From contig JACRJA010000001.1 of assembly GCA_016235745.1 (NCBI GenBank), positions 62,001 to 126,000 on the forward strand: a stretch of DNA of 64,000 nucleotides, given 5' to 3'. This stretch comes from Rhodocyclales bacterium. Its GTDB lineage: Bacteria > Pseudomonadota > Gammaproteobacteria > Burkholderiales > Rhodocyclaceae. Below the pieces are notes generated by a model. The model was not told the origin of the DNA. It saw only the letters and a program-made list of their open reading frames with translations, and ran no database searches. Below are positions 2,015 through 38,261 of the stretch, piece after piece; position 1 is the stretch's first letter; every line of letters starts with the position of its first letter. A program made the translations under genes and the position numbers.

Positions 2015-5000
2015 ATGCACGAAGACGAGGGACGACCGGCCGCATCCTGCATCCGCATTCGCGGTGCGCGCCAGCACAACCTGAAGAATCTCGACGTCGT
2101 CCTGCCCACGGGGCGCTTCATCGCCGTGAGCGGCGTCTCAGGGGCGGGGAAATCCTCGCTCGTGATCGAGACGCTCTACGCCGAGGGGCAGCGCCGCTAC
2201 GTCGAGACCTTCTCGCCCTACGCGCGCCAGTTCTTCGAGCGGCTCGACGCGCCCGAGGTCGACGAGATCGACGCCGTGCTGCCGGCGATCGCCATTGAAG
2301 GCGGCACCCACGTGCGCACCTCGCGCTCGACGGTGGGCACGCTCACCGAGATTGCCGACCACGCCAAGTGGCTCTACGCCCGCGCCGCGCGGCTCTTCTG
2401 CCCCGGCTGTGGCGAGGAGATCGTGCCGCACACGCCGGAGACGGTGGCTGCCGACCTGGCTCGGCGTTTTGCCGCGGACGCCCGGCTCGCCGTGCTCTAT
2501 CCCGTGCCGGTGCCCGAGCGCCTGCCCGCCGAGACGGTGCGCGCCGGGCTTGCCGCCCAAGGCTATTCTCGCATCGTCGCCCGCACGCCTGCCGGGGACG
2601 GGCGCTGGTGGTGGTGGGTGGTGCAGGATCGCTTCCGCCTCGCAGCGGCCGAGGAACGCAGGCTCGCCGAAGCGCTGGAGGCGGCCTTCGCCCTGGGGCA
2701 GGGACGGCTGGCGCTGGCCGATTGGGACGAACTGCGGGCGCGCCTGGGGGAGCCGCCCGCGGCGGGCGAGCCTCCCTCCTGCGAGCGGCTGCCCGTGCGG
2801 GAATACCGCCGCGAGCGCTACTGCGGCAGTTGCGACCGGGCTTTCGCCGATCCCTCGCCGGGGCTCTTCTCCTTCAATTCCCCGGTGGGCGCCTGTCCGA
2901 CCTGCCGCGGCTTCGGACGGGTGATCGGCATCGACTGGGACAAGGTGATCCCGGATCCCTCGCTGTCCCTGCGCCGGGGGGCGATCCGTCCTTGGCAAGG
3001 GGGCTTCTCGGCCCAATGCCAGCAGGAGATGGAGATGCTCGCTCCGGCCGCCGGCGTGCGCCTGGACGTGCCTTGGCACGAGCTTAGCCCAGAGGAACGG
3101 CGCTGGGTGCTCGAAGGCGATCCCGACTGGGCCGACTGGGAGACGAGCTGGCCGCAGCATTGGTACGGCGTGCGCCGTTACTTCGCATGGCTCGAATCCA
3201 AGGCGTACAAGATGCACGTGCGGGTGCTGCTGTCGCGCTACCGCAGCTACACCGTCTGCCCCGACTGCCACGGCACCCGTCTCAAGCCCGAGGCGCTCGC
3301 CTGGCGCCTGCTTGCCCCCGGCGAAGAGAACACGGCAGGGCGCCTGCCCGGTCACAGCCTGCCCGAGCTCTTCGCCCTGCCGGTGGATGAGGCGGCTGCC
3401 TTCGTGCGCCGCTGCGCCGCCGGCATCCAGGGCAAGACCCTGCGGCAGGTGTTCGAGGAGATCGACACGCGTCTGGGCTATCTGTGCGAGGTGGGGCTGG
3501 GCTACCTCACCCTCGATCGCGCCTCGCGCACCCTCTCGGGCGGCGAGCTGCAGCGTATTCACCTCACCACGGCGCTCGGCACCTCGCTCGTGGAGACGCT
3601 CTTCGTGCTGGAAGAGCCCACCGCCGGGCTGCACGCGCGCGACGTGGCGCGGCTCATCGGGGCGATCCGCCGGCTGGTGGACCTAGGCAACACGGTGGTG
3701 GTGATCGAGCACGACCCGCAGGTGATCGCCGCCGCCGACTGGGTGATCGACCTCGGACCGGGCGCCGGGGCCGAAGGGGGGCGGCTGGTGGCCGAAGGGC
3801 CGCCGGCGGTCATCGCGGCGCATCCGTCATCCCTCACGGGGGCTTACCTCAGCGGCCGGCTGCGGGTGCAGGCGGAACGCGCCGCGCGCGAGGTGCGCGA
3901 CGCTCCGTGGCTGCACCTGCGCGGCGCGCGCGAGCACAACCTCAAGGGGATAGACGTAGCGATCCCCTTGTCGGGGCTGACGGTGATCGCCGGCGTGTCG
4001 GGCTCGGGCAAATCCACCCTGGTCGAGAACGTGCTCGTGCCCGCCGTGTCGCGGGCGCTGGGGCGCGAGGCCGAGGCCCCGGGGCCGTACGATGCGCTCG
4101 AAGGGGCGCAGGCGCTCGCCGATCTCGTCTGGATCGACCAGACGCCGCTTGCCAAGAGCGCGCGCTCCATGCCGGTGACGGTAACCGGGGCTTGGGACGA
4201 GCTGCGCCGGGCTTTCGCCGCTCAGCCCGAGGCCGCGGCCCATGGCTTCACCGCCGGCAGTTTCAGCTTCAACGCCGGTGAAGGACGCTGCCCCGCCTGC
4301 GGCGGCTCAGGCTTCGAACACGTGGAGATGCAGTTTCTCGCCGACGTCTATCTCCGCTGCCCGGTGTGCGACGGCCGGCGTTTTCGCTCCGAGGTGCTGC
4401 GCGTGCGCTTCGCCGGCAAGAACGCCGCCGAATGGCTGGATCTCACGGTGGACGAGGCCCTGGCGCTCATCTCCCGCCTGCCGCAGGCCAGGGCGGCCGC
4501 GGCGCGCCTGCAGCCGCTCGTTGCCCTCGGGCTCGGTTATCTGCGCCTGGGTCAGCCCACGCCGACGCTTTCCGGCGGCGAGGCCCAGCGCCTCAAGCTC
4601 GCGGCGCGGCTGGCCGAACGCCGCCGCAGCGCCGGAAAGACCCTCTACGTGCTCGACGAGCCCACCACGGGGCTGCACCAGCACGAAGTCGCGCGCCTGC
4701 TGCGCGTGCTCGAGGACCTGGCCGCACAGGGCGAGGCGGTGGTGGTGGTCGAGCACCACCTCGACGTGATCGCCGCCGCCGACTGGGTGATCGAACTGGG
4801 CCCCGAAGGCGGCGAAGGCGGCGGCAGAATCGTCCATGCAGGGCCAGCGGCCACGCTCGCCGCGGCCGAGACCGCCACCGGCCGGGCGCTGCGCGAGCGC
4901 ACCTTCCTCTTCGCCCCGCCGGCCCTGCCGCTCGCCGCCGAACCCGTTCCTCTCTATGGCCTTGCGCCGCGCCGGGCGATCGAGATCGTCGATGCGTACG

Positions 5001-7522
5001 AGCACAACCTCAAGCACCTCGACGTGACGATTCCGCGCGAGCGGCTCACCGTGGTCACCGGCGTGTCCGGCTCGGGCAAGTCGACGCTTGCCTTCGACAT
5101 CGTCTTCGCCGAAGGGCAGCGGCGCTACCTCACGGCGCTCGATGCCTACGCGCGCCAGTTCGTGCAACCGCCACCGCCGCCAGCGGTGGGCCGCATCCTT
5201 GGCCTGTCGCCCACCGTGGCCATCGAACAGCGCACCAGCCGCGGCGGCTACAAGAGCACGGTGGGTACGCTTACCGAAATCGCCCCCTTCCTGCGGCTGC
5301 TCTATGCCCGCCTCGGCACCCCCTATTGCCCCGAGTGCGGCGTTGCGCTCGAACCGCTCGCTGCCGCTTCCTTGGCGCAGCGCCTGGCGACGCTGCCGTC
5401 GCCGCTTGCCCTCTACGCCCCGCTCGTGCGCCGCCGCAAGGGGATCTACAAGGAACTGGCCGCCTGGGCAGCGCGACGCGGCGTGGCGACGCTGCTCGTC
5501 GACGGCGAGGAGCTTCCCACCGACCCCTGGCCCAAGCTCGACCGCTACCGCGAACACGACATCGACCTGCCGATCGAGCGGCTCGCATCCGCCGACGTCG
5601 ACGCCTTGCGCCGCGCCGTGCAGCAGGCGCTGGAGGTGGGCGAAGGGGTGAAGGTGCGCGACGGCCTCGGCCGCTGGCACCTCTTTGCCGGCGCCCACGT
5701 CTGCCCCTCCTGCGGCAAGGGCGCTCCGCCGCTCGATCCGCGTCTCTTCTCGCAGCATTCGCCCCTGGGCTGGTGTCCGGCTTGCCTCGGCACCGGCCGG
5801 AAACTGCTGGGCGAAGGCGCGGCGCTGCGCGACGGCCGGCCGCAGGCGCTCGAAGCGGAACGCGAGGTCGAGGGCCGCCTCGTCACCGCCCAGACCTGCC
5901 CCGAATGCGGCGGCAGCCGGCTCAATGCGGATGCGCGCGCCGTGCGGCTGCAAGGGATGACGCTGCCGCAGCTCGCGCGCCTGCCGCTCGCCCGCCTGGC
6001 GCCGTGGCTCGACGAAGCCGCGGCGCACTGGGACGAGCGCAGCCGGCGCATCGCCGCCGAAGTGCTGCCGCAGATCGCGCAGCGCCTCGCCTTTCTCTGC
6101 GAGGCGGGGCTCGGTTATCTCACGCTGGAGCGCGCCGCGCCCACGCTCTCGGGGGGCGAAGCGCAGCGCATCCGGCTCGCCGCCCAGCTCGGCTCGACCC
6201 TGCGCGGCGTGTGCTACGTGCTCGACGAACCCACCATCGGCCTGCACCCGCGCGACGACGAAACCCTCATCGCCCTGCTGCGCCGGCTGCAGCGGCGCGG
6301 CAACACGGTGCTGGTGGTCGAGCACGACGAGGCGATGATCCGCAGCGCCGACGAGCTGATCGACCTCGGCCCCGGCGCGGGCGAGCACGGCGGCGAGGTG
6401 GTGGCGCAAGGGCCGCTGCCGGCCATCCTCGCTTCGCCGCGCTCGCTCACCGGCAAGATGCTGCGCTGCCCCATCGCGCACCGGCTCGCGCCGCCGCGGC
6501 CCGTCGCCGACGACGCGGCGAGCCTGTGGGTGCGCGGCGCACGGCACCATAACCTGCAGGGCATCGACGTGCGCCTGCCGCTCGCGCGCCTCACGGTGGT
6601 CACTGGCGTGTCCGGCTCGGGCAAATCCACTCTGGTGCGCGAGGTGCTCGCCCAGAGCCTGCGCCAGGGCCGGCCCGTCGGCTGCGAGCGCCTCGAAGGC
6701 GGGGAGGCCCTCACGCGGCTGCTCGAAGTCGACCAGACGCCCATCGGCAAGACCCCCCGCTCCTGCCCGGCCACCTACCTCAAGGTGTTCGACCCCATCC
6801 GCCGCCTCTTCGCCGAAACCCAGGAAGCGCGCACCCGCGGCTGGGCCCCGGCCTGGTTCTCCTTCAATACGGGCGAGGGCCGCTGCCCCGTGTGCGAGGG
6901 ACAGGGCATGATCACGGTGGAGATGGCCTTTCTGCCCGACGTGCGCGAACCGTGCGACGCCTGCGGCGGCAGCCGCTACCGCGCCGAGACCCTGCAGGTG
7001 CGCTGGCGCGGTGCCTCCATCGCCGAGGTACTGGCGATGACGGTAGCGCAGGCGGCGGAATTCTTCGCCGCCCACCCGGCGATCGCACGTCCGCTGCGCT
7101 GGATGGAAGAAGTGGGCCTGGGCTACCTGCGCCTGGGGCAGCCCAGTCCGACGCTCTCCGGCGGCGAAGCGCAGCGGCTCAAGCTCGTGGCCGAGCTCTC
7201 GCGTCCGGCGCATGCGCCCACCCTCTACCTGCTCGACGAACCCACCGTCGGCCTGCATCTGGCCGACATCGAGAAGCTGCTGCGCGTGCTGCACCGCCTG
7301 GTGGAGAACGGACACACGGTGGTGGTCATCGAACACGACCCGGACGTGTGGCTCGAAGCCGACTGGATCATTGATCTCGGCCCCGGCGGGGGTGACGAGG
7401 GCGGGCGACTGGTCCATCAAGGAACGCTGGAGGCGCTGCGGCGCCGGGGCAAGGGGGCGACGTGCGCGGCGCTCGAACGCGTGCTCGCGCGCCGCGCCGC
7501 TACGGAGGTTCTGGTTCTATGA
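2015..7522 (+). CDS. uvrA: Tandem-fused double-length UvrA (excinuclease ABC subunit A)
   Basis: UvrA is the damage-recognition ATPase of nucleotide excision repair and loads UvrB. At about 1835 aa this is twice the usual length: two complete UvrA units head to tail. Four Walker A motifs are seen: GVSGAGKSS near residue 40, then GVSGSGKST near 660, 1015 and 1530. Each unit has its signature motifs ([16 protein letters not shown]) and CxxC zinc modules (for example CPACGGSG...CPVCDG). The first Walker B reads [11 protein letters not shown], with Glu for the usual Asp, whereas the other three read LDEPT. ATG 2015 is chosen because UvrA homology ([11 protein letters not shown]) begins a few residues later; GTG 1937 and ATG 1964 would add unrelated residues. 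Double UvrA proteins are known in proteobacteria; whether one unit is specialised is unknown. Confidence 0.93.
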
Positions 7523-29158: not shown

Positions 29159-29638
29159 ATGTTCGACGTCCTCGTCTATCTTTTTGAAAACTACGCCGGG
29201 CCCAACGAGGCGCCGAAGGACCCCGACGAGCTGCGCGCGCGCCTTGCCGATGCCGGCTTCGAGGGCGACGAGATCGACGAGGCGCTCTCCTGGCTCGACA
29301 CGCTCCGGAACGGCGAGGCGCTCTCCCCCTCCTGGCGTGTCCCTCCGGCCACGGGCAGCGTGCGCGTCTTCACCGAAGAAGAACGGCACGTACTGGGAAC
29401 CGCCGGGCAGAACCTGGTCTACTTCCTGCAACGCCACGGCGCCCTCGACGAGGCGCTGCGCGAAACCCTCATCGACCGCGCCCTGGAATTCGGCGCCGCG
29501 CCGCTCGATCCGGACGATTTGAAGGTGCTCGCGCTGATGGTGCTGTGGCAGCATGAACGGGAACTCGATCCCCTCGTGGTCGACGAACTGCTGCGCGTCG
29601 AAGACGACGAAGACGCCGAACCGCCGCGGCTGCACTGA
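29159..29638 (+). CDS. smg: Smg/DUF494 family protein
   Basis: Small acidic protein of 159 aa matching the Smg (DUF494) family found next to dprA and topoisomerase genes in many proteobacteria; its function is unknown. Seen: the conserved start MFDVLVYLFENY, an acidic helix with DELRARLADAGF and EIDEALSWLD, the mid-protein FTEEERHVL and a C-terminal LMVLWQHERELDPLV. AAGGAA precedes the ATG. It sits 13 nt after dprA and 4 nt before topB, so co-transcription is likely. Confidence 0.93.
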   Translation: MFDVLVYLFENYAGPNEAPKDPDELRARLADAGFEGDEIDEALSWLDTLRNGEALSPSWRVPPATGSVRVFTEEERHVLGTAGQNLVYFLQRHGALDEALRETLIDRALEFGAAPLDPDDLKVLALMVLWQHERELDPLVVDELLRVEDDEDAEPPRLH

Positions 29639-29642
29639 ACCC

Positions 29643-32138
<2,496 letters not shown>

Positions 32139-32250
32139 CGTCCCCGGCGGCGCGGCGAGGAGACGCGCCGACGCTCGGGGCATGGCGCCAAGCACGTGCG
32201 AACGGAGCCAGAGAACCGGCCCCGTACGCTGATCGGCATGCGGTATCTAT

Positions 32251-33255
32251 CTATAGCTTGGATGGATCGAGTCCCGTGGCTTGATAGATCGACTGGATCA
32301 GATCGGCGCCGACGCGCGATTCCATCTTCTTGTGCACCGGCACGAGCGCACGCTTGAAGGCGCGTTTCTCTTCGGCGGTGGGGACATGAATCTCCGTCTT
32401 GCCAGCAGCTTTCACCAGTTCCAGCGCCTGTTCGTTTTCCTCCTTGGCAATCCCGTTGCCGTACTCGGTCGCTTCTTTCATCGCCTGCTCGAGCTGTGTC
32501 CGGATGTCAGCCGGCAAACCTTCCCAGAATGTCTTGTTGGTGATCACGGTGTAGCCGATGTACCCATGATCGGTGAGGGTGAGGTATTTCTGCACCTCGT
32601 GCATTTTTTGCGTATAAATGTTCGACAGCGTATTCTCGGTGCCATCGACCACCCCGGTCTGCAGTGCCTGATAGACTTCGGAGAAGGCCATCACCTGGGG
32701 AATCGCCCCGAGGGCGCGCATCTGTTCCTCCAGGACCTTGGAAGACTGGATGCGCATCTTCTTGCCCTTGAGATCCGAGGGCTGGCGGATCGGCGTGTTG
32801 GCAGTCAATGATTTGAAGCCGTTGTCCCAGAACGCCAGCCCTTTGATTCCCTTGGGCTCGAGCTTGGCCATCAACTGTTGTCCTACCGGGCCGTAAGTCA
32901 CTTTGTGCAGATCTTCATAATTGTCGAAGATGTAAGGCAGGTCGAAGACCTCGAATTCGCGCACGCCCAACGGACCGAACTTCGACAAAGAAGGCGCCAG
33001 CATGTGCACCGCCCCCAGCTGCAGCGCTTCGAGCTCTTCCTTGTCCTTGTAGAGCGTGCTGTTGGGATAGACCTCGACCTTGACCTTGCCTTCGGTGTAT
33101 TTCTCGGCCAATTCCTTGAATTTCAGCGCCCCCTTGCCCTTGGGCGTGTCTTCGGCCACCACGTGGCTGAATTTGATGACGATCGGCTCATTGGCCGCCG
33201 CCGTTCCCACCAAGGCAAGCGCTGCCAACCCGACCAGCAAGGATTTGATTTTCAT
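32251..33255 (-). CDS. TRAP transporter solute receptor, DctP family (orphan)
   Basis: Periplasmic receptor of 334 aa for a Na+-dependent TRAP carrier of organic acids. Seen: signal peptide (MKIKSLLVGLAALALVGTAA), start of the mature fold IVIKFSHVVAEDTPKGKGA, the ligand-carboxylate Arg region KKMRIQSSKVLEEQ and VVDGTENTLSNIY. GGAGGGAAGG precedes ATG 33255. It resembles C4-dicarboxylate receptors (DctP). No dctQ or dctM is next to it, so its membrane partners must be elsewhere, possibly those at 48605-50373. It is divergent from an acyl-CoA dehydrogenase gene across an operator-like palindrome. Confidence 0.92.
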   Translation of the reverse strand: MKIKSLLVGLAALALVGTAAANEPIVIKFSHVVAEDTPKGKGALKFKELAEKYTEGKVKVEVYPNSTLYKDKEELEALQLGAVHMLAPSLSKFGPLGVREFEVFDLPYIFDNYEDLHKVTYGPVGQQLMAKLEPKGIKGLAFWDNGFKSLTANTPIRQPSDLKGKKMRIQSSKVLEEQMRALGAIPQVMAFSEVYQALQTGVVDGTENTLSNIYTQKMHEVQKYLTLTDHGYIGYTVITNKTFWEGLPADIRTQLEQAMKEATEYGNGIAKEENEQALELVKAAGKTEIHVPTAEEKRAFKRALVPVHKKMESRVGADLIQSIYQATGLDPSKL

Positions 33256-33370
33256 GACCTTCCCTCCTCCCCTTCGTCTCACACTCGAGTAACCGGCTCG
33301 CCACGGTACTGCATCGTTTCCACCGGGCGGTACATTGTGGCACATAGACCATGCATCAACAACGTTTTTC

Positions 33371-33393
33371 GATCAATCAAATTATTATTGATC
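33371..33393. promoter_or_regulatory. Operator-like inverted repeat between dctP and acyl-CoA dehydrogenase
   Basis: GATCAAT (33371-33377), nine-base spacer, ATTGATC (33387-33393): perfect 7-bp arms in an AT-rich island. The right arm overlaps the predicted -35 of the rightward gene. No adjacent regulator gene is present, so the binding protein is unknown. The half-sites are in the opposite order to an FNR box. Confidence 0.5.
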
Positions 33394-33416
33394 AGACTTT
33401 CCGCGAGGGCTAAAAT
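33388..33416 (+). promoter_or_regulatory. Sigma-70 promoter of the acyl-CoA dehydrogenase gene
   Basis: TTGATC (33388-33393), 17-bp spacer, TAAAAT (33411-33416). The start would be near 33423, about 60 nt before the ATG. Confidence 0.6.
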
Positions 33417-33485
33417 CCACGGACATCGTTGGCGCGTCCCCTCACACCGCCCCTCCTTCCTTCGGAGCCGCATGGAGGTAGCATC

Positions 33486-35099
33486 ATGCAATTCCAATCC
33501 TACGCCTATGGCCGGAACCATTGGCAGTGCGACGACGTCCTGCCCGTCGTCCTGCGTCATTATTGGTCCGACCTCGATGCCGCGCACGCGCGGATCACCT
33601 CGTGGGGCGAACTCGTCGGCACGCATGCCTATCGCGTCGGCGCGCACGTCGATCAGGAATCCCCTCCGGTCCTGGTGATGCACGATCTCGACGGCGTGCG
33701 CATCGATCGCGTCCGTCTCTCCCCGGCCCAAGAAGCGCTGATGCGGGAACTCGCGCCCATGATGCAGCCGCCCTATGTTGACCGAAGCTGGCACGAACAC
33801 TACGCCATGGGTTACCTGCTGGCCGATCCCGGTCTGTATTGCCTCCTCACCATCACCCAGCAAGTGGTCTATGCCCTCTTCAAATACGCGCCTCAGCATC
33901 AGGATTGGTGCGCGCGCTTGTTGCGCGGCGACGCCTGGGGTGCAACCTGGATGACCGAAAATCATGGTGGCAGCGACCTGGGAGCCAACCGCACCGTGGC
34001 CCGTCCCGAGGGGGAACACTGGATCCTGAGCGGCGGAGACAAATACTTCGCCAGCGGCGCCGGCCTGACCGACGTGGCCATCGTCACCGCCCGACCCGAG
34101 GGCGCGCCCCCCGGCCCCAAGGGCATCGCCTTGTTCCTCGTACCCCGTCTCAAACGCGACGGTTCGCTCAATTACCACGTGCGACGACTCAAGCACAAGA
34201 GCGCCACCCGCGCCGTCCCTTCGGGGGAAGTGGATCTCGAAGGCAGCGAAGCCTTTCTCATCGGCGAGGCGGACAAGGGGATCTACTACACCTTGGAAAA
34301 CCTCACCTGTTCGCGCCTGGCCAACGCCGTGGCCGCCATGGGGATTGCCCAGAAAGCGCGCCTCGAGGCCCTGCTGCGGGTACGCAGGCGCGCAACGTTC
34401 GGCAAGATGCTGTGCGAACACCCGCTCATCCAGCGTGACCTCGTCGATCTCGCCGTGCGGCAAGCGGGCGGAACGGCCCTGGCGTTTCATGCCGTCGACG
34501 CCTTCGACGACTGCTGGCGTGACACCCCGCCGTACTCGACCCGCTACCATTACGCGCGCTTCCTGTCGCATCTGGCCAAAAACCGCACCGCGGATCATGC
34601 GGCCGAGAGCACGCGTCTGGCCATGGAATTGTTCGGCGGCCTCGGGTTCCTCGAAGAATACGCCGTGGCCCGCTGGCACCGCGAAGCGCTCATCACACCC
34701 ATCTGGGAAGGGCCGAGCAACATCCAGGCGTTGGACCTGCTCGAAGCCATCGTCAAGAAACACGCGCACGAGCCTTTCCTGGAGGAATTCGTACCCCTGC
34801 TCGAGGCGGCCGGGACCGCCGAGGCAAACCGGGCACGCAACTTGATCGAAGGCGAACTGAAAGCCCTTGCCGGGCGCAATGCCGATACCGCTCAATGGTA
34901 TGGCAAACAGCTTCTCACCCGCTTGGCCGACGCGGCCCAAGTCGCCTTGCTCTACCATCTGGCCGAGCGCCAGGGCGAGGAGCGCTTCGCTCAACTGGCC
35001 ACCCTCTACGCCAAGCGTTTTCTCGAAGGCGAAGAATACCCCTCCTGGGCGGCCTCGCACCCCTCGTTGTACCTGCCAGAACTCGAAACCGAGTCGTAG
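33486..35099 (+). CDS. AidB-like acyl-CoA dehydrogenase
   Basis: FAD-dependent acyl-CoA dehydrogenase superfamily protein, 537 aa, of the longer AidB-like type. Seen: the FAD/substrate loop WMTENHGGSDLGANRT, GDKYFASGAGLTDVAIV, the middle beta-domain, and the C-terminal helical domain with LFGGLGFLEEYAVARWHRE and PIWEGPSNIQALDLL, plus an extra C-terminal helical region. GGAGG precedes the ATG. AidB itself is linked to alkylation resistance, but many homologues are ordinary catabolic enzymes, so the substrate is open. It pairs divergently with an organic-acid TRAP receptor through a shared operator, suggesting joint induction. Confidence 0.87.
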   Translation: MQFQSYAYGRNHWQCDDVLPVVLRHYWSDLDAAHARITSWGELVGTHAYRVGAHVDQESPPVLVMHDLDGVRIDRVRLSPAQEALMRELAPMMQPPYVDRSWHEHYAMGYLLADPGLYCLLTITQQVVYALFKYAPQHQDWCARLLRGDAWGATWMTENHGGSDLGANRTVARPEGEHWILSGGDKYFASGAGLTDVAIVTARPEGAPPGPKGIALFLVPRLKRDGSLNYHVRRLKHKSATRAVPSGEVDLEGSEAFLIGEADKGIYYTLENLTCSRLANAVAAMGIAQKARLEALLRVRRRATFGKMLCEHPLIQRDLVDLAVRQAGGTALAFHAVDAFDDCWRDTPPYSTRYHYARFLSHLAKNRTADHAAESTRLAMELFGGLGFLEEYAVARWHREALITPIWEGPSNIQALDLLEAIVKKHAHEPFLEEFVPLLEAAGTAEANRARNLIEGELKALAGRNADTAQWYGKQLLTRLADAAQVALLYHLAERQGEERFAQLATLYAKRFLEGEEYPSWAASHPSLYLPELETES

Positions 35100-35252
35100 C
35101 AGGATCATCAGGGCTATCACGGCATTGCCGAGTGGCCGCCGTGGTCGTGCTCGCGCCAGGGGATCGACGCGGGGGAGAACGACCTTGGCCGTCGTCCCGG
35201 CGAAAGAGGCCCTCAGCGAGGAAGAACGACGCCTCCACTTGGCAGCGCAAGC

Positions 35253-35459
35253 TCATCCGGCGAGTTCATCCGGCCAGCGTACCCAGCCGACCTCGTCGCG
35301 CGCCGCACCGTGCGGAATGACGCCCAGGCACGGAGCGCCAAGCCCGCGTTGCAAGGTGCGCAGGTTGCCATCGGGACAGGCCATGGCGGGATCGATGTGA
35401 TTGGCCACCCAGCCGGCGAAGCGAAGCCCCCGGCGCCGGATCGCCTCCGCCGTCAGAAG
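35253..35459 (-). pseudogene. bioD: bioD remnant (C-terminal part of dethiobiotin synthetase)
   Basis: On the minus strand the frame reads [26 protein letters not shown] and PCLGVIPHG, the C-terminal third of BioD, ending at TGA 35253-35255 after about 68 residues. It starts abruptly at LLTAEAI, and no N-terminal P-loop part (GTDTGVGKT) is present upstream. It is joined directly, in another frame, to a bioF fragment. The 150 bp further downstream to the acyl-CoA dehydrogenase stop show nothing recognisable. Part of a collapsed biotin operon. Confidence 0.75.
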
Positions 35460-35542
35460 TCAGTGATCAACCAGGCCCCATGCGCTCGTGTCAACGCCGA
35501 CAGTTCCCGCAGCGGTGTCAGATCGCCGTCCATGCTGAATTC
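35459..35542 (-). pseudogene. bioF: bioF remnant (internal piece of 8-amino-7-oxononanoate synthase)
   Basis: About 28 codons on the minus strand read EFSMDGDLTPLRELSAL then [11 protein letters not shown], the BioF segment just before the DDAHG block of this PLP enzyme. In its own frame it reaches a stop two codons later. It overlaps the bioA piece by one base, in a different frame. Too short to fold as an enzyme. Confidence 0.7.
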
Positions 35543-35634
35543 AAGGCGATCTCGGTTGCACTGGCTCCGTCGGAGGCAAAAAAAGCATGACCGAGCTGGC
35601 CCTCGGTCAAGGCCCGAAGGCGCTCGGCCAACTC
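35542..35634 (-). pseudogene. bioA: bioA remnant (internal piece of DAPA aminotransferase)
   Basis: About 31 codons on the minus strand read ELAERLRALTEGQLGH then AFFASDGASATEIAL, the conserved BioA block containing FF-SDGASATE-AL near the PLP phosphate site. It continues in frame from the bioB piece, so the two form one chimeric reading frame. The rest of bioA, including the PLP Lys region, is absent. Confidence 0.7.
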
Positions 35635-35967
35635 GACCTTGGGTGCTCGCCAGGCGGCGCCCATGCAAAAGCGCGTGGCGCCGGCTTCCTTGGCCGCCGT
35701 GGCGTGGCGCACGATGGTCTGCGTATCGAGCAAGGGCTCGCGCGAGTGCGCATGATGGCGCGCCGACTGGGCGCAGTAGCCGCAATCTTCGGAACATCCC
35801 CCCGTCTTGATCGACAAGAGGGCCGATCGCTGGATGCGGTGGCCGGGAAAGTGCCGCCGGTGGGTGTCGTGGGCCCGATGCAGCAGCTCGAAGAACGGCA
35901 ATTCGAACCACGCGCGCAGATGGGCTTTGTCGATCGCTTGCATTGGGGCATTTGTGATTTCTAGCAT
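35635..35967 (-). pseudogene. bioB: bioB remnant (N-terminal third of biotin synthase)
   Basis: About 111 codons from ATG 35967 (an in-frame TTG lies 12 nt upstream) read as BioB: FELPFFELLHRAH, SALLSIKTGGCSEDCGYC, which contains the radical-SAM CxxxCxxC cluster motif, then GATRFCMGAAWRAPK. At this point BioB homology stops and BioA sequence follows in the same frame; about two thirds of the enzyme, including the 2Fe-2S ligands, is missing. The reading frame would give a 148-residue BioB-BioA chimera. The upstream region is AT-rich and may still hold a promoter; no BirA box was recognised. Confidence 0.8.
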
Positions 35968-36105
35968 GATTTTCACCAAAAAGTAGCAAACATCTTCAAT
36001 TGTGCGTTAACTTCTGCGATCGTGCAAGATTTTTTCGGCACGCCCGGTCCGGCGATACCCGTCCGGAAACGGAGTCGCTGAGAAAAACCAAGGAACGAAA
36101 AAGAC

Positions 36106-36249
36106 GGGCGCCGCGAACGACCGTCGCGAGCGGCGGCAGGGCAAGGCGCCCGGAGCGCGGCAGGCGAGACATATCAATGAAGATAGGCGAGCCTGCGAGC
36201 ACCGCGCAACGCCGCCATACGGCCGCGCAGCAGGTCGTTCGAGGCGCCC
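36106..36249. repeat. Structured intergenic repeat, copy A
   Basis: This 144-bp element fills much of the 341 bp gap between the bioB remnant and the LTA-synthase-like gene; I see no gene in that gap. Outer arms GGGCGCCGCGAACGACC (36106-36122) and GGTCGTTCGAGGCGCCC (36233-36249) pair with a single mismatch. Inside are shorter hairpins: GTCG-CGAG-CGGC, GGGC/GCCC around AAGG, and GCAGGC/GCCTGC with a nested TATC/GATA. Blocks GTCGCGAGCG, AGGCGC, CGGAGCG and GGCCGCGCAGC are shared, in order, with copy B at 44468-44555. Either a structured RNA or a palindromic repeat; direction unknown. Confidence 0.6.
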
Positions 36250-36308: not shown

Positions 36309-38261
36309 TTACTTGGCGGCGGTGAGGTCTTGCGCGCGCCAGGCGAGCAGCCCGTTGTGGAAGGCGTGACTCGCGTCTTCGTAGTAGGCGATGGCGCGGC
36401 GCACCAAGGGGTCTTCCGGCGTCGCCGGGCGTTCGCGCTCTGCGTCCGCCGCGGCATTCTCGCGCAGACGGATCTTCTTGCGCGGGCTGAGGATCGCCAG
36501 ATCCTTGCCGTCGAAAAGCCCCAGGTGCTGGTAGTTGCCGATGAGGGCGCGCCCCGGGCGGGTCTCGTCGCGCAGCACGTCGCGCCCGTAGAAGGTGGAG
36601 ACGTAGTCCATGTTCAGCAGCCCGAGCAGGGTGGGGGCGAGGTCGATCTGGCTTGCCAGCGCCGAGACCTCGCGCGGCGCGATGAAGCCCGGCGCGTAGA
36701 TGAAGAGCGGGATATGATAATTCGCCACCGGCAGATCTTCATGTCCGGCGCTGCCGGCGGTGTGATCGGCAAGGAAGACGAAGATCGTGTCCTTGAACCA
36801 AGGCTTGTCGCGCGCTTCGCGCAGGAACTTGCCGATGGCATAATCGGTGTATTTCACCGCGCCGCTTCGCCCCTTGCCCGAAGGGATGTCGATGCGCCCC
36901 TCGGGATAAGTATAGGGGCGGTGGTTGGAGGTGGTCATGAGGTGCAGGAAGAAGGGCTTGCCAGCGGCGTGATCCTGGTCGGCCACTTTCATCGCCTGGG
37001 CATAGAGATCTTCGTCGGCCATGCCCCAGGCATTCTTGAAACCGATCTCGGACTCAGGAACGCTGCTCTGGTCGACGATGCGGTAGCCGTTGCCGCTGAA
37101 GAAAGCGTTCATGTTGTCGAAGTAGCCCCGTCCGCCATAGACGAAGACGGCGTCGTAGCCCTTGGCCACGAGCTGCTGGCCGAGGCTGGCATAGCCGCTC
37201 TCGCGCCCGATGCGCTTGACGATGGAGCGGCCCGGGGTGGGCGGCACCGACAGGGTGACGGCTTCCAGGCCGCGGTCGGTGCGGGTGCCGGTGGCGTAGA
37301 AGTTGTTGAAATAGAGGCTTTCGCGGCGCAGGGCGTCGAGGTTGGGAGTGAGGCCGCGCGTATCGCCGTTGCTGCCGAGGAACTTGGCGCTGAGGCTCTC
37401 CACCGTCACGAGGATGATGTTGCGCCGCACTTCCTCGCCGTCGTTGGCGATGCGCCGGCGCGGATCGAGGGGATCCTGGCTGAGGAAGCTCGCATTGGGC
37501 TCGGCGAGCGCTTCGCGCAAGACCGGCCCCGTCTCGGTTGCGGGCAGGGTAGCGTAGAAGCGGCGGTAGTCGATCTCGTTGTTGCGAAAGGCGGCGAAGA
37601 ACTGGTACGGCCCGTTGCCGGAGAGCTCGCGCCGATAGGTGTTCTGCTCCTGCCCCATGGGGAAATCCTGGTCGACGAAGGTCGCATCGAGCGCGGCGAG
37701 CACGACCAGCCCGGCGAAGGCGGCAAGCCCTGGCTTGAACGGCAGGGGCGGAGCCGCCAGCGCGCGGGCGATCAGCCGGCGCAGGGCGAAGGTCAGCGCC
37801 AGCGCGAGCGCGGCCAGCCCCGCGATCAGCGGCCCCACGGGGTAGGATTCACGGATGTTGTCGATCACCTCCGTGGTATAGACGAGGTAATCCACGGCGA
37901 TGAAGTTGAAGCGCGCGCAGAACTCGTCCCAGAAAAAGTATTCGGCCACGGCCACGAAGAGCATGGCAAAGAGGCTCAGGGCCGTGAGCGCATAGAGGAA
38001 GGCGCGGTGCACCCGCGTGGCCCACAGCCGGTTGGGGCACAGTACGAAGAGATAGAAGGCGAGCGGCAGGGCGGCATAGACGAGAAAGGCGAGGTCGTAG
38101 GCCAGGCCGACGCCGTAGAGGCGCAGCACGTCGACCGGCGTGCCCGCTGCCTCGCCCGAATGCAGTAGAAGCAGCGCCGTGCGGGTGAGAAAGAAGACGA
38201 GCAGCCAGGCAAGCAGGATGAGCGAGAGAAAACGGCTCTGGGCATGGCGGGGCAGCGGCAT
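36309..38261 (-). CDS. LTA synthase-like membrane sulfatase/phosphoglycerol transferase
   Basis: Membrane-anchored alkaline-phosphatase-superfamily enzyme, 650 aa. Seen: five N-terminal hydrophobic helices (to about residue 200), then a periplasmic catalytic domain (from about 270) with the metal-binding ILVTVESLSAKFLG, the nucleophile Thr in GTRTDRGLEAV, and FLADHTAGSAGHEDLP with later metal ligands. Gram-negative members transfer phosphoglycerol or phosphoethanolamine to periplasmic glucans or lipids (OpgB- or EptA-like), so lipoteichoic acid synthesis is not implied. The start has no clear Shine-Dalgarno. It stands alone, downstream of the sigma-54 activator gene on the same strand with a 116-bp gap. 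Confidence 0.88.
   Translation of the reverse strand: MPLPRHAQSRFLSLILLAWLLVFFLTRTALLLLHSGEAAGTPVDVLRLYGVGLAYDLAFLVYAALPLAFYLFVLCPNRLWATRVHRAFLYALTALSLFAMLFVAVAEYFFWDEFCARFNFIAVDYLVYTTEVIDNIRESYPVGPLIAGLAALALALTFALRRLIARALAAPPLPFKPGLAAFAGLVVLAALDATFVDQDFPMGQEQNTYRRELSGNGPYQFFAAFRNNEIDYRRFYATLPATETGPVLREALAEPNASFLSQDPLDPRRRIANDGEEVRRNIILVTVESLSAKFLGSNGDTRGLTPNLDALRRESLYFNNFYATGTRTDRGLEAVTLSVPPTPGRSIVKRIGRESGYASLGQQLVAKGYDAVFVYGGRGYFDNMNAFFSGNGYRIVDQSSVPESEIGFKNAWGMADEDLYAQAMKVADQDHAAGKPFFLHLMTTSNHRPYTYPEGRIDIPSGKGRSGAVKYTDYAIGKFLREARDKPWFKDTIFVFLADHTAGSAGHEDLPVANYHIPLFIYAPGFIAPREVSALASQIDLAPTLLGLLNMDYVSTFYGRDVLRDETRPGRALIGNYQHLGLFDGKDLAILSPRKKIRLRENAAADAERERPATPEDPLVRRAIAYYEDASHAFHNGLLAWRAQDLTAAK

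Follow-up and report, generated by a model that had tools for sequence, protein, structure and literature searches.

A probable remnant of a collapsed biotin operon, apparently mosaic, in a Rhodocyclales bacterium

The stretch of Rhodocyclales DNA analysed here (64,000 nucleotides, hereafter the window) carries at positions 35253–35967 of its minus strand what is very probably a non-functional remnant of a biotin operon, in which pieces of bioB, bioA, bioF, and bioD follow one another end to end and without spacer, the operon order being kept within ~0.7 kb. We hold this explanation with good confidence as a whole, that is, for the remnant together with its mosaic makeup, the deletions that would have produced it, and the predicted auxotrophy of the cell. 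The first-pass annotation had called the locus a bioB-bioA-bioF-bioD fossil, and comparison with Bio proteins, by profile matches and tblastn, bears this out for all four pieces in that order; the mosaic makeup of the remnant is new here. The genome carrying the window (G000) is a draft assembly (73 contigs, 2,158,122 bases, 94% complete), and our genus sample consists of this genome and four congeners (G001–G004).

The bioB piece (35638–35967, minus strand) comprises codons 1–110, with its ATG at 35967, and matches NCBIfam TIGR00433 over profile positions 3–113 of 307 (E 4.8e-28, 98 bits); its score falls short of the cut-off set for the whole protein (225), as one would expect of a fragment, and the radical-SAM motif CSEDCGYC, whose cysteines had already been pointed out, is undamaged. 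The same frame continues through 33 interior codons of bioA (35540–35637, minus strand; TIGR00508 positions 67–110 of 419, E 7.5e-6). Next come ~25 interior codons of bioF (SMDGD ... AHGAWLI; 35463–35539, minus strand, the low end being approximate), which match TIGR00858 at positions 161–187 of 365, with E 2.9e-5 in the genome search and E 1.6e-6 when an approximate query sequence is used. The last piece (~35253–35461, minus strand) holds the C-terminal ~67 codons and the stop of bioD, and was identified by tblastn with the intact BioD of G001 (63% identity over 73 residues, 149–221; E 5e-28). While bioB and bioA share one reading frame, bioF and bioD occupy two others, as had been proposed along with the lack of a spacer; within each of the four pieces there are no stops and no frameshifts, and there is no complete reading frame for BioB, BioA, BioF, or BioD at the locus. 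The positions and reading of the pieces as first described stand, and their lengths shift by a few codons: from 111 to 110 for BioB, from 31 to 33 for BioA, from 28 to ~25 for BioF, and from the last 68 to the last 67 or so for BioD. Pfam retrieved only the radical-SAM part of the remnant, under the cut-off, and gave no match for the three short pieces. Since the four matches stand in operon order on one strand, chance is excluded as their source.

At the DNA level, the bioB piece is 89.2–93.9% identical to the congeners (four genomes, 99 codons) and is thus as near to them as are the flanking genes, while the corresponding values are 72.7–75.8% for the bioA piece, 69.3–70.7% for bioF, and 66.7–67.2% for bioD (three genomes each). 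Third positions differ between G000 and G003 in 15 of 99 bioB codons versus 67 of 122 codons in the other three pieces taken together (Fisher p 8e-10); comparisons with G001 and G002 give the same picture, and these three pieces exceed bioB 2.5- to 3.6-fold in the share of codons with a third-position difference. Neutral drift as the cause of their low identity is ruled out, because 67 of their 109 differences from G003 fall at third positions (p 2e-9 versus one third) and because the bioA piece, which as protein is 85–94% identical to three congeners, reaches 94% in protein and 76% in DNA. By these counts, the differences in the bioA, bioF, and bioD pieces bear the mark of purifying selection. 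The bias suggests that these pieces were functional genes while they diverged and have since become attached to the resident bioB, and they seem to derive from a divergent or foreign block. It bears as well on the first-pass description of a recent, stepwise loss. Recency holds up, in that the bias supports an inactivation that would be recent relative to the divergence from the congeners, without giving it a date; the stepwise loss of a single ancestral operon looks too simple an account, since the bioA, bioF, and bioD pieces seem to come from a divergent allele.

We consider it very improbable that the remnant has been put to new use, with its open BioB–BioA frame (153 codons, 35518–35979) making a small protein. 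The frame is indeed open across both pieces, and the bioB leader region (35968–36105, minus strand) is conserved with G003 (88% identity in the alignment across 35637–36106; the matches to G001 and G002 end near the bioB start, with different genes beyond). However, about two thirds of BioB is gone, as the profile span given above indicates, the third-position bias is accounted for by the time before the collapse, and no BioB–BioA fusion is found at the loci of the four congeners.

On the left, the locus is flanked by a DNA topoisomerase gene (29553–32138, plus strand; PF01131, Toprim_Crpt), a flank common to all four congeners at 91.5–93.2% identity. Between it and the remnant lie a DctP-type solute-binding protein gene (32251–33345, minus strand; PF03480) and an AidB-type acyl-CoA dehydrogenase gene (33429–35099, plus strand; PF00441/PF02770/PF18158), neither of which is at this place in the four congeners. 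The DctP-type gene has a GC content of 57%, against 67% for the window, and its congener copies are 71–79% identical and lie elsewhere, in G001 and G002 only; the nearest congener copy of the acyl-CoA dehydrogenase is 74% identical and also lies elsewhere in the genome. The segment 32251–35099, which holds these two genes, is probably foreign, perhaps with a hint of a hot habitat. A plasmid origin for the block 32139–35640 was considered and rejected: only 64 of 72,556 plasmid records match, all at less than 80% identity (30 Thermus, 28 Rhizobium, and 6 others), the best 10 of the 64 all being Thermus thermophilus acyl-CoA dehydrogenase (72%). Likewise rejected was an association of either gene with bio genes at the other loci compared, where matches occur only in L069, L070, and L078, at 23–33% identity, which we attribute to chance. 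On the right, a sulfatase-family membrane protein gene (36309–38261, minus strand; PF00884) is a flank common to G003 and G004 only (90–92% identity). Beside the bioB leader, at 36106–36249, we also observe a MITE-like mobile repeat, a 144-bp element that ends in imperfect inverted repeats of 17 bp and folds strongly (z −5.5), flanked in G000 by a 4–5 bp direct repeat (AGAC/AGACG) and with an empty site in G003; its first ~95 bases recur in at least 40 other places in G000, and the element is matched in all four congeners and in 7 of the 36 other genomes searched (22 places in G023). Repeats of another kind occur far to the left, at 3686–7444, where four 135-nt and three 140-nt direct copies, 61–73% alike and spaced at 1.0–1.6 kb, perhaps represent tandemly repeated related genes or domains.

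The three joints of the remnant were judged for overlap from congener sequences, from which the actual parental allele of the bioA, bioF, and bioD pieces differs. Junction 1 (bioB to bioA, 35637–35638, minus strand) has a 2-bp overlap, GG, junction 2 (bioA to bioF, 35539–35540, minus strand) has none, and junction 3 (bioF to bioD, 35452–35463, minus strand) has at most a few bp, its position being uncertain by ~10 bases, with the bases between the bioF and bioD matches fitting neither parent well. Such near-absent homology fits illegitimate deletion and not recombination at long repeats. As for direct repeats at the joints, positions 35000–35700 hold just two 13-nt pairs, neither of which joins two joints, in a comparison from which the deleted DNA is absent. 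To join two places, short-read graph assemblers require them to have words of at least ~20 bases in common, and overlaps of 2, 0, and a few bases therefore make assembly collapse at repeats unlikely. That the operon is in truth complete and three of its intervals are left out of the contig is, accordingly, a reading to which we give very little weight, even for a draft in 73 contigs; profile searches moreover did not find the parts supposedly skipped elsewhere in G000, and the bioA, bioF, and bioD pieces represent a separate allele from those of the congeners.

We propose that the genes downstream of bioB were first swapped for a foreign or old divergent block, which perhaps brought along the acyl-CoA dehydrogenase and DctP-type genes now lying on the topoisomerase side of the remnant. 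Three deletions, their ends sharing hardly any homology, by illegitimate end joining or replication slippage, would then have cut both this block and bioB, removing most of the former and the 3′ two thirds of the latter; they may have been successive or parts of one complex event. It is also conceivable, but in our judgement unlikely, that the bioA–bioF–bioD scrap had collapsed already in a donor and that recombination cut bioB at codon 110, in which case junction 1 would be the recombination joint. The boundary between native and divergent sequence does coincide with junction 1, and this account could equally draw on the two neighbouring genes not found at this place in the congeners, one of them low in GC. 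Yet the 2-bp overlap at junction 1 offers little for homologous recombination, the exchange boundary seen among the congeners lies near the end of bioB and not at codon 110, and no donor emerged. No close donor of the three pieces was found among 395 family genomes (227 with a match), in a non-exhaustive search that missed G003 itself, which another search matches at up to 77%, nor among the bio loci compared in protein. Among the matches listed, those of at least 70 bases reach at most 83% identity, and only stretches of at most 50 bases reach 84–92%; for each piece, the nearest of the loci compared by protein bit score are the congeners.

In all four congeners, bio genes with frames free of stops adjoin the same topoisomerase gene, so that the fuller operon that the first-pass annotation suggested looking for in related strains does exist at this locus, in varied states. 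Following the topoisomerase gene, G002 and G003 have bioB, bioA, bioF, bioC, and bioD together with bioH (its frame open in G003), G001 has bioB, bioA, bioF, and bioD and neither bioC nor bioH, and G004 has bioB alone, ending 30 bases from the topoisomerase stop; the intact sets of G001–G003 span 4.4–5.1 kb, and searches of G004 gave bioF matches at paralogue level (≤25 bits), no bioD match, and no bioA above the cut-off. The genes bioA, bioF, and bioD are therefore kept beside the topoisomerase gene in three of the four congeners, and at least bioB in all four. More broadly, bioB scores above the cut-off in 55 of 61 genomes (our own and 60 relatives), including the four congeners. A five-genome tree built from the topoisomerase gene and bioB stretches places G000 with G003 (FastTree 0.96, IQ-TREE 83) and G001 with G004 (FastTree 1.00, IQ-TREE 99), and since G000 and G004 thus stand on different branches, their losses would most simply be independent. 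An older loss with later re-gain in G001 is possible, because G001 and a G003-like lineage seem to have exchanged bioA–bioF recently.

The sign of such exchange is a break in identity near the end of bioB. At 150-base resolution, G001 and G003 are 84–95% identical in bioB, 96.5–100% in bioA and most of bioF, and 93% in the last block, and G001 and G002 are 90–98% and then 75–88% identical, with one block at 61%. Between the loci of G001 and G003 (L109 and L111), bioA is 98.5% and bioF 97.0% identical, versus 93.4% for the topoisomerase gene and 90.1% for bioB. The break suggests that downstream genes have been exchanged between lineages, and part of the operon seems to have passed recently between those of G001 and G003. 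Tentatively, and with less than even confidence, we picture bioB as the fixed resident in this genus and bioA–F–C–D with bioH as a block that may be lost, regained from sisters, or replaced, such that cells would move between making biotin, rescuing dethiobiotin by means of bioB, and full dependence; the remnant would then represent a cell whose last block has collapsed, bioB being lost along with it.

Profile searches of the 94% complete draft found no intact bioB, bioA, bioF, or bioD elsewhere in G000 (none of the four). TIGR00433 retrieves this fragment and one weak match that is also present in congeners, TIGR00858 this fragment and two weak paralogues, and TIGR00508 this fragment and three paralogues below the cut-off; TIGR00347, for bioD, gives one weak match within a 683-codon frame, also found in two congeners, and does not report the C-terminal piece that tblastn found. 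BirA and the biotin carrier protein BCCP score above their cut-offs in all five genus genomes, and a search for the biotin transporter BioY found it in none of the five. The possible biotin auxotrophy suggested by the first-pass annotation gains support from the lack of an intact copy in G000, the congener genes at the locus, and the retention of BirA and BCCP, and we predict from this gene content that G000 is likely a biotin auxotroph; the part missing from the assembly may still hold another, undamaged copy. Lacking bioB, G000 should require biotin itself, dethiobiotin being useless to it, and if the auxotrophy is true, biotin would be taken from the surroundings, the cell loading imported biotin onto its carrier protein via BirA. 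Outside the locus, all five genomes have a second BioC-like gene (141–147 bits, cut-off 185), to which the operon bioC of G002 and G003 is inferior in score (129–130 bits); its retention, like the lack of BioY, counts against our explanation. In two loci (L160, 2821–4539; L161, 3527–4687) this second methyltransferase gene lies between tRNA methyltransferase-like and porphobilinogen synthase-like genes, so named by eye; it is present also in genomes without bioF and bioD.

The process overall is ordinary pathway decay, well documented here; less usual are the clean end-to-end collapse, the two allele sources, and the congeners that display other stages at the same locus. Five genomes of one small-genome genus present complete, partial, bioB-only, and collapsed states at one place, which makes it testable in the genus in what order a vitamin pathway is lost and whether the loss can be reversed. 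Among the papers listed on bio pseudogenes and remnants, gene remnants and successive deletions, and the Wolbachia biotin operon, we found no similar arrangement, though one may be in print. The part of PMC9561691 relevant here reports that aquatic bacteria have often lost bioF, bioA, and bioD, whether or not bioB is missing too, that 51.8% of 1068 genomes are unable to make biotin, that 20.3% keep bioB and lack at least one other gene, and that bacteria retaining bioB grow on dethiobiotin. By gene content, G004 belongs with its bioB-only class of desthiobiotin/biotin auxotrophs, and by analogy is predicted to grow on dethiobiotin, whereas G000 belongs with the class without bioB. That work, in the same part, scores gene presence and absence, whereas the present locus shows the remnants physically, with their joints and a divergent allele; a presence/absence survey would miss that the lost block was a different allele from that of the congeners. 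The BOOM biotin operon of obligate intracellular bacteria, as described in the corresponding part of PMC7750005, entered its hosts on several occasions, five of them in Wolbachia, and in some lineages the locus is incomplete or individual bio genes may have been replaced; it arrives as an operon with flanks that lack synteny, whereas in our genomes bioB keeps its place next to a single topoisomerase gene and the later genes change. In Rickettsia, according to a portion of PMC2374718, neighbouring genes were lost in blocks or by several small deletions; in contrast to the pseudogenes described there, the pieces in G000 contain neither stops nor frameshifts and abut one another directly.
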